Assembly (NCBI GenBank): GCA_902560245.1
Contig: CACELK010000004.1
Location: 1-64,000, forward strand
Source: an uncultured Pelagibacteraceae bacterium
GTDB lineage: Bacteria > Pseudomonadota > Alphaproteobacteria > Pelagibacterales > Pelagibacteraceae
Reading direction: 5' to 3'
DNA length: 64,000 nt
Shown here: positions 34,395 through 41,367 of the stretch, in pieces
Position numbering within the stretch: position 1 is the stretch's first letter
Layout of the letters: the number at the start of each line of letters is the position of its first letter
The notes under the pieces: model-generated
What the model was told of the DNA's origin: nothing
The model's input: only the letters and a program-made list of their open reading frames with translations
The model's database searches: none
Program-made: the position numbers and the translations under genes

Positions 34395-34727
34395 TTATAC
34401 CTTAAAAGATTCTCCACATCCACACCTTTCACTTTCATTAGGGTTTTTAAATATAAAAGACGAGGAAAATTCACCTTTTTGATAGTCCATTTCGGTTCCT
34501 AATAAATACATTACTGCAGAGGCATCAACAAAAACTTTAACCCCTTTTTCATTTATTACTTCGTCGCTTGGATTAATTTTTTTTGTATATTCCATGACAT
34601 AAGACATTCCTGCACAACCCCCGCTTTTAACACCAATTCTTACCCCAACAGAATCGTTATTCGCAGAGGACATTATCTCTTTTATTCTTTTTGCAGCTGT
34701 ATCGCTTAATGTAATTATTTGTTTCAT
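34395..34727 (-). CDS. sufA: Iron-sulfur cluster carrier SufA/IscA
   Basis: This 110-residue A-type carrier shows SGGCAGMSYVMEY (first Cys of the three) and SERCGCGESF (the CxC pair). A-type proteins receive Fe-S clusters from the SufBCD scaffold and pass them to targets. It overlaps the sufT stop by one base on the same strand. The SufA or IscA naming is by operon. Confidence 0.92.
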   Translation of the reverse strand: MKQIITLSDTAAKRIKEIMSSANNDSVGVRIGVKSGGCAGMSYVMEYTKKINPSDEVINEKGVKVFVDASAVMYLLGTEMDYQKGEFSSSFIFKNPNESERCGCGESFKV

Positions 34728-35023
34728 TATAAATTTAATTCTAATTTAGCTGCTTCAGACATCATTGATTTATTCCACGGTGGATCCCAAACCAAATCGA
34801 GATCAACTTTCCTTATACCGTCTACCTGCATTACACTATCTTTCACTTCTTTAGGTAAACTTTCAGCAACTGGACAGTTTGGTGAAGTTAAAGTCATTTT
34901 TATATTCGCAGTATCTCCATTGATAGATATATCATAAATTAAACCAAGTTCATAAATATTAACTGGTATTTCAGGATCATAAATTTTTTTTATTTCCTCA
35001 ATAACTTTATCTTTTAAGTTCAT
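34727..35023 (-). CDS. sufT: SufT/DUF59 (MIP18-like) Fe-S assembly protein
   Basis: This 98-residue protein has the DUF59 signature: KIYDPEIPVNIYELGLIYDI and TLTSPNCPVAESLP, the latter with the conserved Cys. SufT-type proteins help maturation of Fe-S proteins. Overlaps of one base on each side join sufU and sufA, so it is translated as part of the suf operon. Confidence 0.92.
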   Translation of the reverse strand: MNLKDKVIEEIKKIYDPEIPVNIYELGLIYDISINGDTANIKMTLTSPNCPVAESLPKEVKDSVMQVDGIRKVDLDLVWDPPWNKSMMSEAAKLELNL

Positions 35024-35496
35024 TATATTTCCAAACTTTCTATATTAATTTCATTCTGGGATTTATCAATAGCCGATGTTAAAGTATGCCATGAAAGTGT
35101 CGCACATTTTACTCTCATTGGGTACTGCTTAACTCCTGATAAACACATTAATTTAGTTTTTTCGTCTTCACTTAAAAGTTTTGTATCTAGAGTTTCTTTT
35201 TCCTTAATCATTTCTAAGAAATCATTTATTATCTCTTTTACCTCATGCTCTTCCTTGCCTTTTACCATGCTAGTCATAATAGACGCTGAGGCCATTGATA
35301 TCGCACATCCCTGACCTTCAAAAGATATATCCTCTACCTTTTTGCTTTCATCTAGTTTTAAATAAACGTGAACTTTATCTCCACACAAAGGATTGTGTCC
35401 CTTTGCATCTTTATTAAAATTATCTGTCTTTCTAAGGTTTCTTGGATTCTTTCCATGGTCTAAAATTATTTCTTGATACAGTTCTTTTAAGTTCAT
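35023..35496 (-). CDS. sufU: SufU/NifU-like scaffold or sulfur-transfer protein
   Basis: This 157-residue IscU-fold protein has the three conserved cysteines: HNPLCGDKVHVYL, GQGCAISMASASIM and RVKCATLSWHTL. In SUF systems SufU receives sulfur from SufS, often in place of SufE, which is not seen here. It starts directly after the sufS stop. Confidence 0.92.
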   Translation of the reverse strand: MNLKELYQEIILDHGKNPRNLRKTDNFNKDAKGHNPLCGDKVHVYLKLDESKKVEDISFEGQGCAISMASASIMTSMVKGKEEHEVKEIINDFLEMIKEKETLDTKLLSEDEKTKLMCLSGVKQYPMRVKCATLSWHTLTSAIDKSQNEINIESLEI

Positions 35497-36711
35497 TTAT
35501 TTAAAAATTTTTTTGGTTTTATTAATAGCTTTATCTAATATATCAAAATCTTCCTTGGTGTTATAAACTCCTATAGAGGCTCTTGCTGTTGCAGATAAAC
35601 CCAATTTATCGTGAAGGATTTGACAACAATGGTGTCCGGCTCTTATCGCTACACCGTCTTCATCTAAAATAGTGGCAATATCGTGAGGATGTATTCCATC
35701 AATCGTAAAAGACAAAACTCCACCTTTATTCTTTGGATTTCCAATTAATTTAACTGAGTTATTTTTTCTGAGTATTTCTTCTCCATACATTAATACTTCA
35801 TTTTCATGTTTTAATATATTTTCTATTCCAATTTTATTTAAAAATTTTAAAGACTCATCAAAAGCTATAACTTGTGCGGTTTGCATTGTTCCTGCTTCAT
35901 ACTTGTTAGGTAAATCACCGTAAGTGATGCCCTCTTTTTTTACATCACCTATCATTCCTCCGCCACCTTGGTAGGGTGGCAATTCCTCTAACCATTTTTT
36001 TTTTGCATATAGAATTCCTAAGCCTGTTGGTCCGTACATTTTATGACAGGATATAGCGTAAAAATCACAATCTAAATCTTGCATATCTAACTTTAAATGT
36101 GGGGCGCCTTGACAACCATCTATCAATACTGGAATATTTTTTGAGTGCGCTAGCTGTGTTATTTCCTTTATAGGTAAAATAGCACCTGTCACATTAGAAA
36201 GATGAGTGATGGCTATAATTTTTGTTTTAGATGTAATTTTTTTTTCTATACTCTCAAGTGTAATTTCTCCTTCATCATTTACATCAGCAAACTCTATCTT
36301 TACACCTTTAGATTTCCTTAAATAATGCCAAGGTACATAATTTGAATGGTGTTCTAACTCAGTTAGTAATACCTCGTCCCCTGATTTTAAATATTTTTGA
36401 CCGAAAGTACTTGCAACTAAATTGATAGCTTCTGTAGCTCCTTTTGTAAAAACTATTTCATTTTTATCTCTTGCATTTATAAATTTTTGCACGGAAACTC
36501 TTGTGTTTTCATACATATTAGTTGCTGCTACAGCTAAGTAATGAATACTTCTTCCAACGTTAGAAAACTCTTTTGAGTAGAAGTCATAAATTCTATCAAT
36601 TACTACCTGTGGTTTTTGAGATGAATTTGCACTATCCAAATACACTAAATCATTATTTTGGATTTTTTGGTTAAATATTGGAAACTCTTTTTTAATATTA
36701 TCTATATTCAT
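35497..36711 (-). CDS. sufS: Cysteine desulfurase SufS
   Basis: This 404-residue PLP enzyme removes sulfur from cysteine for Fe-S cluster synthesis. The PLP lysine lies in DFYAISCHKMYGPTGLG and the sulfur-carrying cysteine in RAGHHCCQIL. The class II (SufS-type) layout, with the short cysteine loop, separates it from IscS. It overlaps sufD by four bases. Confidence 0.95.
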   Translation of the reverse strand: MNIDNIKKEFPIFNQKIQNNDLVYLDSANSSQKPQVVIDRIYDFYSKEFSNVGRSIHYLAVAATNMYENTRVSVQKFINARDKNEIVFTKGATEAINLVASTFGQKYLKSGDEVLLTELEHHSNYVPWHYLRKSKGVKIEFADVNDEGEITLESIEKKITSKTKIIAITHLSNVTGAILPIKEITQLAHSKNIPVLIDGCQGAPHLKLDMQDLDCDFYAISCHKMYGPTGLGILYAKKKWLEELPPYQGGGGMIGDVKKEGITYGDLPNKYEAGTMQTAQVIAFDESLKFLNKIGIENILKHENEVLMYGEEILRKNNSVKLIGNPKNKGGVLSFTIDGIHPHDIATILDEDGVAIRAGHHCCQILHDKLGLSATARASIGVYNTKEDFDILDKAINKTKKIFK

Positions 36712-37955
36712 TCTTTTAATCCGATCATAGTTTTAATTAAATTCTTAATCTCTTCATCAGTAATTTTATTAATTACATCTAATAAAAAACCATTAATTAA
36801 GAGCTCCTTAGCTTCTTTATAGTTAAGTCCCCTTGACATAATATAAAATATAGAATTTTCATTTAAACTTCCTGATGCTGATCCGTGTGAACATTTTACA
36901 TCATCAGCATAAATTTCTAGTTCTGGTTTTGCATTAAATTCAGTTGTATCCTCAAGGAGAATAGCTTTACTAAGTTGATATCCATCAGTTTTCTGTGCAT
37001 CAGAGCTAACAAATATTTTTCCTTGATAAACAGCTCTTGCATTATTTTCTAAAACACTTTTTATTAATTGATAGCTTTTAGTAGACTCTGTTAAATGATT
37101 TATACTAGTTCTAATTTCATGATGTTTTTTTTTGTTTAAAGATAAAATACCATTAACAAATGCAGAGGAATAATTTCCATTTAAATTGCAGTTAATTTCA
37201 TTCTTATTAAAAGCAGAGCCTGACGAAAGTATAAATATTTCTGATAAACTATTTTTATCTTGCTCAATGTTTGTGAATGAATATTTAATATTGCTGTTGT
37301 TTTTAACATCTACTTTATAATTCTTCAAAATTGCATCTTGATTTAATTTAAAAGTATAAAAGGTGTTAATGAAATTTTTTTCTGAAAAATCGTCTAAAAC
37401 ATCTATTAATTTTAAAGAAGCATTTTTTTCTAATTCAAAGCTTAGTCTTAGATTAAGGTTTTGAGATTTAAGCTTTTTATTTGTATAATGATAAATTACC
37501 AATGGTTTTTTAAAAGAATAGTTCTCCTTAACGGTTAATACGAAATTTTTTTCTGTAAAGGCATTATTTAAATTTACTAATGAATTAATATCTGAAGATA
37601 TCTTTTCTACTTCAAAATTATCCGAAATTTTTACTTTATCTTTTTCCTCAAATTGTAAGTCAATTTTTTCGGCTCTACCGTTTATAAAAACAATAGAATT
37701 GTGTTTTAATCCAACAAGATACATCGAAGGATCTATTTTATTTGGAGATGATATATCATTATAAAAACTTAAATCTCCAATTTCTCTTTTAATAATTTTA
37801 CTTAGGTCTGAATACTTCCAATTTTCTAAATTTTTACCTGGTAACCCTTCTTTAATAAATTTATTTAAAAATTCTTTTTTAAGATTTATTTTTTTTGAAT
37901 CTAAATTTGAATTTTCAAACGATTTTTTGAAATCTTTAGTTAATTGTTTTTCCAT
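36708..37955 (-). CDS. sufD: SufD, Fe-S assembly scaffold subunit
   Basis: This 415-residue protein is a SufB paralogue. Its C-terminal half carries the SufBD core with YADDVKCSHGSASGSLNENSIFYIMSRGL, which includes a His near the interface. It forms the SufBC2D scaffold that assembles the nascent cluster. The N-terminal part is Lys/Asn-rich. It lies between sufC and sufS with a zero-base gap and a four-base overlap. Confidence 0.94.
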   Translation of the reverse strand: MEKQLTKDFKKSFENSNLDSKKINLKKEFLNKFIKEGLPGKNLENWKYSDLSKIIKREIGDLSFYNDISSPNKIDPSMYLVGLKHNSIVFINGRAEKIDLQFEEKDKVKISDNFEVEKISSDINSLVNLNNAFTEKNFVLTVKENYSFKKPLVIYHYTNKKLKSQNLNLRLSFELEKNASLKLIDVLDDFSEKNFINTFYTFKLNQDAILKNYKVDVKNNSNIKYSFTNIEQDKNSLSEIFILSSGSAFNKNEINCNLNGNYSSAFVNGILSLNKKKHHEIRTSINHLTESTKSYQLIKSVLENNARAVYQGKIFVSSDAQKTDGYQLSKAILLEDTTEFNAKPELEIYADDVKCSHGSASGSLNENSIFYIMSRGLNYKEAKELLINGFLLDVINKITDEEIKNLIKTMIGLKE

Positions 37956-38690
37956 TTAGTTTAAACCTTCATAACCTTTCTTCTCTAATTCAAGTGCAAG
38001 TTCAGGTCCACCTGATTTAGTAATCTTTCCATTCATTAAAACATGAACGTGATCTGGTTTTATATAATCTAGAAGTCTTTGATAATGAGTAATTATTAGA
38101 AAGGAATTATTTTTTTTTCTTAAAGCATTAACCCCTTGTGCAACAATTTTAAGTGCATCTATATCTAGTCCTGAATCTGTTTCATCTAATATAGAAAGTT
38201 TAGGATTTAAAATTGACATTTGTAAAATTTCGTTCTTTTTCTTTTCACCACCAGAAAAACCAACATTTAATTGTCTATTTAGTTTTTCCTCATCAAATTT
38301 TAACTCTTTTGATTTTTGCTTAACTAACTTTAAAAATTCTAGAGCATCTAACTCTTTTTCTCCCCTGGCTTTTCTGATTGCATTAAGAGAAGTTTTTAAA
38401 AATATATTTGTATTTACCCCAGGTATTTCTAATGGATATTGAAATGCTAAAAAAATACCTTTATGAGCTCTCTCTTCGGTCTCGAGTGAAAATAGATCGA
38501 TACCCTCAAATTTTATTTCACCGGATACATCATAACCTTTTTTTCCTGACAAAATATTTGATAAAGTGCTTTTTCCAGATCCATTGGGTCCCATTATTGC
38601 ATGTACTTCGCCTGGTTTTATATCTAGTGAAAAATCATTTAAAATAGATTTTTCTCCAACTTTAGCTTTTAAATTATTAATTTTAAGCAC
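37956..38690 (-). CDS. sufC: SufC, Fe-S assembly ATPase
   Basis: This 244-residue ABC-type ATPase has a Walker A GPNGSGKST, an ABC signature GFSGGEKKKNEI, a Walker B region LSILDETDSGLD and the switch His in LIITHYQRLL. It powers the SufB-SufD scaffold rather than transport, as the absence of membrane partners shows. Its neighbours are sufB and sufD. Confidence 0.96.
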   Translation of the reverse strand: MLKINNLKAKVGEKSILNDFSLDIKPGEVHAIMGPNGSGKSTLSNILSGKKGYDVSGEIKFEGIDLFSLETEERAHKGIFLAFQYPLEIPGVNTNIFLKTSLNAIRKARGEKELDALEFLKLVKQKSKELKFDEEKLNRQLNVGFSGGEKKKNEILQMSILNPKLSILDETDSGLDIDALKIVAQGVNALRKKNNSFLIITHYQRLLDYIKPDHVHVLMNGKITKSGGPELALELEKKGYEGLN

Positions 38691-40151
38691 TTAACCCACA
38701 CTCCCCTCTAAGCTAATTCCCACTAATTTTTGAGCTTCTACCGCAAACTCCATTGGTAACTGTTGAAGAACTTCTTTACAAAAACCATTAACAATTAATC
38801 CTACAGCTTCTTCAGAATTCAAACCCCTTTGCTGACAATAATGTAACTGCTCCTCACTAATTTTTGATGTGGTAGCCTCATGAGCTAAATTTGATCCAGA
38901 GTTTTTATTTGTAATGTAAGGAACAGTGTGAGCGCCACATTTATTACCCATAAGAAGTGAATCGCATTGAGTATAATTTCTTGAGTTATCTGCCTTTTTA
39001 GAAATATCGACTAATCCTCTGTATGTCATATCTGAAAACCCAGCGCTTATACCTTTAGAAATAATTTTACTCTTAGTATTTTTTCCCAAATGAATCATTT
39101 TAGTGCCAGTATCAGCCTTTTGATGATTATTAGTTATTGCGATAGAATAAAATTCTCCTATTGAATTATCGCCTTTTAAAATACAACTTGGATATTTCCA
39201 TGTAATTGCTGAACCTGTTTCTACTTGCGTCCACGAAATTTTTGAATTTATACCTTTGCAAAGTCCTCTTTTAGTTACAAAGTTATATATACCACCCTTC
39301 CCATCTTTATCACCTGGATACCAATTTTGAACTGTAGAATATTTTATTTCTGCATCGTCAAGAGCAATTAATTCAACATTTGCTGCGTGTAATTGATTTT
39401 CATCTCGCATTGGAGCTGTACAACCTTCTAGATAACTTACATAACTTCCTTTATCAGCTATGATCAAAGTTCTTTCGAATTGTCCTGTGTCAGATGCATT
39501 AATTCTAAAGTATGTTGATAATTCCATTGGACATCTTACTCCTGGAGGTACATACACAAATGAGCCATCTGTAAATACTGCTGAGTTTAATGTTGCAAAA
39601 AAATGATCCGTTAAAGGTATAACAGATCCTAAATATTTTCTAACAAGTTCAGGATGTTTTTGTATCGCTTCAGATATAGAACAAAATATTATTCCTTTCT
39701 CAGTTAATTTATCTTTAAAAGTAGTTGCAACAGAAACTGAGTCGAAAACTGCATCTACAGCTATATTATTTAATCTCTTTTGTTCTTGTAAAGGTATCCC
39801 CAACTTTTTATAAGTCTCTAACAATTTTGGATCTAAATCATCTAAGCTTTTTGGTTTTTCTTTAAAACTTTTTGGTGCAGAATAATAATATAAATCTTGA
39901 TAATCTATTTTTGGGTACTTTGGTTTTTGCCAATTTGGTTCCTTTAAAACTTTCAATCTTTGATATGCTTTCAATCTCCAATCTAATAGCCATTTTGGTT
40001 CTTTTTTAATATTAGAAATAAATCTTATTACTTCCTCATTTAATCCTTTTGGAGCTTTAGTATTTTCTATATCAGTTGAAAATCCGTATTTATATTTTTT
40101 TAACTTCTCAATTTCTTTTTCTCGAGAATTTTGACTAGACTCTGTTTTCAT
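38691..40151 (-). CDS. sufB: SufB, Fe-S assembly scaffold
   Basis: This 486-residue protein includes the SufB-specific segment [28 protein letters not shown] and the C-terminal block [31 protein letters not shown], in which a conserved Cys and Glu help hold the cluster. It is the main scaffold of the SUF pathway. Its start overlaps the iscR coding region by 17 bases. Confidence 0.96.
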
Positions 40152-40560
40152 TTTTACCCTTAATTAAATCACTAAGATTCTTTTTGTTAAAAAATTCGTT
40201 TATATGTAGTTCCAACTCATCCCATAAGTTGTGCGTAATGCATTTTGCAGACTTTCCATTGCAACCTTTTTTGGACTCTTTTTTACATCCAACTGTTTTA
40301 ATATTTTCTTGAACTGCAGAAAAAATATTTGAAATTTTTATTTGTTCAGGACTTTTAGTTAATTTATAACCACCATTGGAACCTCTAACACTCGTTACAA
40401 TTTGATTTTTTTTTAGCATTGAAAAAATCTGCTCTAAATAAAGCAATGATATGCCTTGTCTAAGAGATATATCTCTAAGCGATACAGGGCTGTCACCGTC
40501 AAACTTGGCTATGTCTGCCAGTGCCATCACAGCATATCTTCCTTTTGTACTAAGTTTCAT
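40135..40560 (-). CDS. iscR: IscR, Rrf2-family Fe-S-sensing repressor
   Basis: This 141-residue protein has an N-terminal winged helix ([33 protein letters not shown]). The cluster ligands Cys92, Cys100 and Cys107, with His110, match the spacing pattern of E. coli IscR. It senses Fe-S status and represses suf genes when clusters are plentiful. It heads the suf operon and likely autoregulates: an IscR-like palindrome covers its promoter (40594-40614). A ribosome site AAGGAT lies six bases before the ATG. Confidence 0.93.
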
Positions 40561-40583
40561 AAAAATCCTTAAATTGCAGGAAT

Positions 40584-40614
40584 TTATATATATACCATAC
40601 TAAAATAGTCAAGT
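40584..40614 (-). promoter_or_regulatory. Probable IscR operator and suf promoter
   Basis: Reading the minus strand, ACTTGACTATTTTAGTATGG (40595-40614, one more T at 40594) resembles the type 1 IscR site, with half-sites ACTTGACT and AGTATGGT around an AT core. TTGACT (40607-40612) can serve as the -35 box, and the TATATA run at 40584-40591 as the -10, 16-17 bases apart. The site would block RNA polymerase when holo-IscR binds. The leader before the iscR ATG is only about 20 bases. Confidence 0.65.
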
Positions 40615-40636
40615 TTATATAATTAAAAATAGCAAT

Positions 40637-40707: not shown

Positions 40708-41367
40708 ATGGATAAGAATAAAATTGTAGAAATATTTATTCCAGGTCCAGCTGGAAGGTTGGAGGCAAAATATATTAAAAGTAAAAAAAATACATCTCCA
40801 ATAGCTCTTATTTTGCATCCTCACCCGCAATACGGTGGTACGATGAATAATAAAATAGTAGTAGAAACATTCAATAAATTTATGGAAAATGATTTTTCTG
40901 TTTGTAGGGTTAACTTCAGAGGAGTTGGAAAAAGTGATGGTGAATTTGATAATGGCCAAGGTGAATTAGCTGACGCAGCTGCAGCGCTAGACTGGCTTGA
41001 AAAAGAAAACTTTGATAATTCTCAATGCTGGATATCAGGATTTTCATTCGGTTCATTAATTGCAATGCAGCTTCTAATGAGAAGACCAGAAATAAATCGC
41101 TTTGTAGCTATTTCACCTCAGCCAAATGTATATGATTTTTCATTTTTATCTCCATGTCCTACATCTGGATTAATGGTTTATGGAAAAAAAGATGAACTTG
41201 TCCCTTTAGAAACTATAAATGAATTAGATAAAAGATTAAGTATGCAAAAAGGAATAAAAGTTGAGTTTCTATCGGTAAAAGATGCAAATCATTTTTTTGC
41301 AAAAAATGAAGATAATTTATGCAAAATATTAGATGATTATATCAAAAAAGAAACTGCGTTATTTTAA
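40708..41367 (+). CDS. Alpha/beta hydrolase
   Basis: This 219-residue cytoplasmic protein belongs to the small YheT/CocE-like bacterial hydrolase group whose N-terminus reads ALILHPHPQYGGTMNN. The nucleophile elbow is GFSFGSL (Ser); later motifs are VYGKKDELVP (Asp) and DANHFF (His), completing the triad. The substrate is unknown. It is followed by a Yip1-like membrane protein gene two bases later. Confidence 0.87.
   Translation: MDKNKIVEIFIPGPAGRLEAKYIKSKKNTSPIALILHPHPQYGGTMNNKIVVETFNKFMENDFSVCRVNFRGVGKSDGEFDNGQGELADAAAALDWLEKENFDNSQCWISGFSFGSLIAMQLLMRRPEINRFVAISPQPNVYDFSFLSPCPTSGLMVYGKKDELVPLETINELDKRLSMQKGIKVEFLSVKDANHFFAKNEDNLCKILDDYIKKETALF

Follow-up and report, generated by a model that had tools for sequence, protein, structure and literature searches.

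A probable type I IscR-like operator over the promoter of the iscR-suf gene run in a Pelagibacteraceae bacterium

In Escherichia coli and Pseudomonas aeruginosa, the regulator IscR, when loaded with a [2Fe-2S] cluster, acts as a repressor on type I sites of the iscR promoter, and the loss of the cluster relieves the repression, as described in PMC5411485 and PMC3899308. The consensus for the type I sites of E. coli is given in PMC3899308 as ATASYYGACTRWWWYAGTCRRSTAT. According to the descriptions in PMC5411485 and PMC8561392, residue E43 of IscR lies opposite positions 7-8, which are TT in one half of a type I site and CC in its other half.

We analyzed a window of 64,000 nucleotides from an uncultured Pelagibacteraceae bacterium (assembly GCA_902560245.1, contig CACELK010000004.1, positions 1 to 64,000 of the forward strand), for which a type I IscR-like operator had been predicted over the suf promoter. 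The SAR11 bacteria are very abundant marine bacteria that live in a low-iron habitat and have few transcription factors. Iron limitation of Candidatus Pelagibacter ubique was reported to raise the mRNA levels of SAR11_0738-0745, which comprise a regulator and the suf genes, 1.76- to 2.44-fold, with P = 0.062 for the first of these genes, labelled sufA "transcriptional regulator"; the SufA-E protein did not rise with the suf mRNA (PMC2864753). The words "iscR" and "Rrf2" are absent from the main text of that paper. In the literature on IscR, Rrf2 proteins and iron regulators in Pelagibacter and SAR11, judged mostly without full text, we found nothing that appears to concern this operator, and neither binding nor reporter experiments with an IscR from SAR11. 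Iron regulation in the Alphaproteobacteria was reportedly reconstructed by Rodionov et al. in 2006, and that work may already include a prediction of such sites for Pelagibacter.

The predicted operator sequence, ACTTGACTATTTTAGTATGGT, was found on the minus strand at positions 40614-40594 (the original prediction had left the strand unstated) and is located just before iscR as claimed, 33 nt ahead of the start codon at position 40560. Read from 40614 to 40594, its two halves and spacer are ACTTGACT-ATTTT-AGTATGGT, with CTTGACT as the left and AGTATGG as the right half-site. The full operator of 25 nt, AAACTTGACTATTTTAGTATGGTAT, spans positions 40592..40616 on the minus strand and has three mismatches to the E. 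coli consensus. The TTGACT -35 box (40607..40612, minus strand), with which an overlap had been predicted, is contained in the left half-site. The -10 region (40583..40590, minus strand), which was assigned from the sequence and from a block of conserved columns in relatives, holds two overlapping and indistinguishable candidates, TATATA at 40590-40585 with a 16-nt spacer and TATAAA at 40588-40583 with an 18-nt spacer. Judged by the sequence, the operator covers the -35 box and the spacer of the promoter of the iscR operon. At its 40584 end, the span originally given (40584-40614) already includes the start of the -10 region. A mechanical scan for sigma-70 promoters, the rule of which requires a T at the last -10 position, did not list the suf promoter.

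The left half-site matches the type I sequence TTGACT/TTGAC exactly, while the right half-site AGTATGG differs at two positions from the expected AGTC-RR-S (CCGAC on the other strand), with CC retained and the G opposite C15 lost. In our alignment, TT on the left and CC on the right are preserved in the window sequence, which lacks a G that all canonical sequences share. The dyad is imperfect: across 21 nt, 6 of its 10 positions pair.

The site fits the E. coli consensus at 22 of 25 positions (88%). With up to three mismatches, this consensus was matched at one place in the window, as compared to a mean of 0.01 in shuffled sequences, of which 1 in 100 contained a match. The genome-wide motif scan that had been suggested as a check likewise recovered a single type I match at this threshold in the own genome (1.06 Mb, estimated to be 84% complete) and none for the reversed-pattern control. 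A Markov model gave an expectation of about 1e-5 for the gap upstream of iscR and 0.1 for the own genome. The pattern as worded in the original prediction was matched twice in the window at three or fewer mismatches (shuffle mean 0.48) and is by itself weak evidence, because 10 of the 100 shuffles also reached two matches. A SAR11-style pattern with two mismatches had 59 matches in the own genome, which is fewer than the 104 of its reversed control, and we regard this list as noise. Type II IscR-like sites (CCxYA-N7-TRxGG with A/T flanks) had no match in the window at up to one mismatch, with 1.59 expected. Read from the outside, the derived right half TATACCATA resembles the type II half WWWWCCxYA, but by our count it is one base off the type II register, and a type II reading of the site was therefore dropped.

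The gene behind the operator (40135..40560, minus strand) codes for an iscR-like Rrf2 regulator of 141 amino acids and is followed on the same strand by sufB (38691..40151; NCBIfam), sufC (37956..38690; TIGR01978), sufD (36708..37955; TIGR01981), the cysteine desulfurase gene sufS (35497..36711; TIGR01979), sufU (35023..35496; TIGR01994), a gene for a PaaD/SufT-like SUF-associated assembly protein (34727..35023; TIGR02945) and, as the last of the run, a gene for a SufA/HesB-like A-type carrier (34395..34727; TIGR00049), each of these seven scoring above the cut-off of its model. The eight genes overlap or abut. A divergent gene for an alpha/beta hydrolase (40708..41367, plus strand; Pfam Abhydrolase_1, from the list of open reading frames) shares the intergenic region and is separated by 91 nt from the 25-nt site; nothing at this locus points to a control of the hydrolase gene by the operator.

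The regulator scored 121.9 bits against the Pfam Rrf2 model PF02082 (cut-off 30) and 161.7 bits against the NCBIfam IscR model TIGR02010, which is below the cut-off of 207.55. It is therefore referred to as IscR-like, a name that is based on its neighbors, its ligand set and its best model. The ligands follow the pattern C-X7-C-X5-C-X2-H, in which the loop C-X7-C replaces C-X5-C. It is the only Rrf2 protein in the own genome, at the estimated 84% completeness.

Upstream regions of iscR were compared across SAR11, as the original prediction had proposed, using 137 loci, of which 57 belong to the same genus (L001, L082-L105, L181-L208, L216-L219) and 80 come from Pelagibacteraceae records that lack a genus code (L002-L081), the best 80 of 453, with IscR identities of 70-98%. 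Some loci represent the same genome (e.g., L010 and L083; the window itself appears as L001 and again as L082), and we therefore counted distinct sequences, of which the 137 loci provided 127 over 160 nt upstream. The left half CTTGAC[CT] was present in all 137 loci. Column 15 contained C (AGTC/GGTC) in 116 of the 127 distinct sequences and A (AGTA/ACTA) in the other 11, which include the window. In the records that bear the name Candidatus Pelagibacter ubique (L015, L064, L069), the site is of the canonical form. For the 116 canonical sequences, the mean information content was 1.86 bits (left half), 1.60 (centre), 1.75 (right half) and 1.65 (-10 region), with 0.45 bits just downstream, 1.16 in the four bases before the site and 0.92-0.93 further upstream. 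A lack of conservation ahead of other SAR11 iscR genes had been named as the observation that would speak against an operator; this objection fails, given the conservation described above. The reading as a type I IscR-like operator is supported by the consensus fit, the conservation and the IscR ligands, with the qualification that the window and its near relatives have a changed right half.

The 11 window-type sequences were selected by their right half, and the presence of A in all 11 is for this reason no test. In the corresponding IscR proteins, C92, C98, C104, H107, E43 and Q44 (E. coli numbering) are retained in 11 of 11 rows, which suggests that the same dimer must read both halves. Ser40 is replaced by Leu in the window-type rows, a residue that is also found at this position in 16 of the 109 canonical rows. 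An altered DNA specificity of IscR was considered and rejected, with E43 and Q44 invariant in the window-type rows and Leu40 shared with canonical rows; from the aligned sequences, we see no change in IscR that would explain the change in the operator. The altered half fits a half-site that would still work, although probably more weakly. Across the genus (L001-L105, L181-L219), the Ser found at residue 40 of the recognition helix in E. coli is replaced by Asp, Val or Leu depending on the lineage, and this variation has a possible link to the use of TTGACC or TTGACT in the left half.

Two trees bear on the origin of the altered half. The tree of IscR alone has an unresolved base of the genus and needs two changes at column 15. 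In the tree of SufB, SufC and IscR (49 selected rows), the window's clade branches within the genus, surrounded by rows with C, and four changes are required; the column-15 states of the rows in this tree and of L209-L215 were set by hand. In the operon tree, the clade of nine rows that holds the window has A at column 15 in 9 of 9 rows. As the clade is nested inside the genus, the AGTA/ACTA form can be taken as derived near the window, and the reading of AGTA as a retained ancestral state was rejected. The form also looks recurrent, since similar right halves are seen in the sister genera as well as in a second SAR11 family, where the sole site of the genome reads ACTAAGG in G045 and AGTAGG in others. 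Rows with A from L008 and from L010 and L245 fall outside the window's clade in the operon tree. The IscR tree groups L008 and L010 with the window and L084 apart, while the operon tree puts all three elsewhere; this conflict (L008, L010, L084/L245) is a possible hint of recombination around the iscR promoter. An extended -10 element (TGG-TATATA) created by the change is possible in the window, but it does not explain the recurrence, because no TGn is found in the right halves of the sister genera.

We examined 12 loci with iscR in three sister genera (g81, g83, g84). The sequences are TTGACT-N5-AGTAGGA in L213 and L214 of g81 and TTGACT-N5-ACTAGGA in L209 of g84. All nine g83 loci lack TTGAC within 90 nt and have GTAGGA as the right half, and the dyad ACY-N5-RGT is retained in eight of the nine (the exception is L212). 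The persistence of this dyad without TTGAC argues for protein binding over -35 conservation alone. Within g83 (L210-L212, L215, L285-L289) the constant half is swapped to the right, and the left half, which bears the -35 box elsewhere, is the variable one. All 12 genomes of g81, g83 and g84 contain iscR and none reaches the consensus at up to three mismatches; the 11 sequences scored have 6-9 mismatches to the E. coli consensus. No iscR was detectable in the two genomes of g80 and the three of g82, and the missing consensus match in these two genera says little on its own, because the three genera with iscR have none either. The suf genes are retained in G220, G223 and G233 of g80/g82 (loci L223-L225 and L230-L232), where sufB directly faces the hydrolase gene and the gap between the two contains neither TTGAC nor ACY-N5-RGT; the argument from genomes without iscR is based on these three promoters, two of which are nearly identical. 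The sister genera diverge further than the window and its near relatives, and the regulatory logic originally claimed for the site looks like that of a single-operator autoregulatory loop. Among 29 other alphaproteobacterial iscR loci, an exact YYGACY-N5-RGTCRR within 400 nt upstream was present in seven, a match with one substitution only in five (L154 is the most site-like) and none in 17; the chance of an exact match is about 0.0015 per locus at equal base frequencies.

In total, 75 of 95 genomes of the order had a match to the consensus at up to three mismatches, including 63 of 66 genomes in the genus (62 at one place and G290 at two) and 12 of 12 in the second family, f2, as compared to 0 of 17 in the sister genera. 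For the same 95 genomes, the reversed control gave 18 places, roughly one for every five genomes. A possible second target in G290, also at up to three mismatches, lies inside an open frame of 228 codons. In the genus, the site ends 20-31 nt ahead of iscR in all 38 genomes with coordinates among the matches listed. Each of the 12 f2 genomes has one site, which ends 736-745 nt ahead of iscR. At the three f2 loci L291, L292 and L293 (genomes G045, G039 and G042), a cysE-like gene of 223-225 codons starts about 64 nt behind the site and directly precedes iscR. This gene was identified in L293 as a serine O-acetyltransferase of the cysE/epsC type, with a score of 208.5 bits that is just below the cysE cut-off of 210.65 and above the EpsC cut-off. 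A cysE gene behind an IscR site would link the cysteine supply to the control of Fe-S assembly. The sufB gene was found downstream of iscR in both f2 loci checked (L106/L241, L107/L242). A comparison of cysE-iscR in f2 with iscR-suf in the genus suggests that the operator remains tied to the promoter at the head of the run, whichever gene comes first.

Neither iscR nor the site was found in G300, G305 and G309 of the genus. A full match to sufB was missing in all eight SAR11 genomes without iscR that were tested (five of the genus and three of f2; G033 had a weak partial match), and an assembly gap is therefore likely in these eight. The remaining three of the 11 genomes without iscR, from g80 and g82, contain sufB. 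A wider reading, which we put forward tentatively and hold to be somewhat less probable than its opposite, is that IscR has been reduced to a one-operator regulator in the Pelagibacterales, with a type I regulon that consists of its own promoter (before cysE-iscR in one family and iscR-suf in the other), a feedback strength that is set mainly by one half-site while the half with the -35 box is fixed, and the loss of both regulator and operator in some genera.

For the window itself, we consider it quite likely that IscR acts through this site as an operator to control the run of eight genes to which it belongs, iscR-sufBCDS-sufU-paaD/sufT-sufA, with the binding predicted from sequence. The cluster-dependent binding and repression are carried over from the published biology of IscR, with which the position of the site, its consensus fit, the ligands of the protein and the absence of the site from the three suf promoters examined that lack iscR are consistent. 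When Fe-S clusters are plentiful, IscR would carry a [2Fe-2S] cluster, and the dimer in this form would occupy both half-sites, covering the -35 box and the spacer, keep RNA polymerase off and so repress the operon, the eight genes of which presumably form one transcript. A shortage of iron or clusters would lead to the loss of the cluster, to the release of IscR and to expression of the operon. The altered right half (AGTA/ACTA) may still be bound, perhaps more weakly, which would result in a milder repression. Such a loop would explain mechanistically why suf mRNA was found to rise when iron was limiting (PMC2864753). The natural variants, in which the operator is intact, changed in the right half or absent along with iscR, represent natural experiments on the tuning of Fe-S homeostasis.

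Three other explanations were weighed against regulation by IscR. The operator may be decaying in the window and its near relatives, with the left half kept only as a -35 box, IscR binding no longer useful and the suf genes expressed near-constitutively. The rarity of A at column 15, the additional change of AGT to ACT in some of the 11 sequences and the nested, hence derived, position of the window's clade agree with such a decay, and the eight distinct sequences of the clade have 1.81 bits in the right half with flanks of 1.09-1.51 and 1.86 in the four bases just before, so that the conservation of the right half within the clade proves little. When all 11 window-type sequences are taken together, however, the right half has 1.82 bits as compared to 0.97-1.13 in the farther flanks (1.89 in the four bases before). 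Several genomes of the other family have the same type of right half at their sole site, iscR is intact with all its ligands, and the putative type I sites of P. aeruginosa described in PMC3899308 fit the consensus less well than the window site. We consider decay unlikely, although it is the most serious of the three.

The conserved block could alternatively be nothing but a strong promoter (-35 TTGACY, -10 TATAWA) to which no regulator is bound. The left half is identical to the -35 hexamer, the function of which could alone explain part of the conservation of this half, and the conservation extends into the -10 region. This would leave unexplained the conservation of the canonical right half, which is located in the spacer, the loss of the block from the three suf promoters without iscR and the g83 dyad, which mostly outlives TTGAC; we hold a bare promoter to be very improbable. 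That another regulator of the Fur or Irr type uses the site is extremely improbable: Candidatus Pelagibacter ubique has both fur and irr (PMC2864753), but the sequence fits the type I IscR consensus at the start of iscR, the own genome has a single Rrf2 protein, and the window has no type II IscR-like site at the threshold used. Regulation by IscR is thus the reading that we retain.

We finally compared the window operator to known systems. The type I operator of the isc genes in E. coli has the same length, the same spacing and the same asymmetry of TT in the left and CC in the right half, and it is also placed over an iscR promoter with the regulator as the first gene. It differs in that it controls isc, while that of the window would control suf, and in its right half (AGTCRRS as compared to AGTATGG). 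Three IscR sites are cited for E. coli iscR in PMC3899308, as compared to no second type I site at up to three mismatches in the own genome. The type II site of E. coli (CCxYA), which is used by the same regulator, can overlap a -35 box according to PMC8561392, but has no counterpart in the window at up to one mismatch. In P. aeruginosa, the putative sites A and B at iscR are also type I-like and overlap an RNA polymerase recognition motif, and the right-half core ACTC of site B shows that right halves vary there too; the species differs in having two sites, which fit the consensus to 68 and 76%, as compared to 88% in the window (PMC3899308). Rhodobacter sphaeroides is described in PMC4618611 as having an alphaproteobacterial IscR that is likewise encoded first in an isc-suf operon and acts as a repressor with its cluster, but it uses a different 19-bp motif, the Iron-Rhodo-box, at many iron genes and a ligation by a single Cys, whereas the SAR11 IscR has kept three Cys and one His and is associated with the one site shown here. 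Perhaps less expected are the single site per genome, the presence of cysE behind it in one of the families, the repeated alteration of one half-site and the absence of the site from the three suf promoters examined in genera without iscR. The mechanism itself is very probably an ordinary one, by which the operator of the window joins the well-known type I IscR switches, with one half altered.
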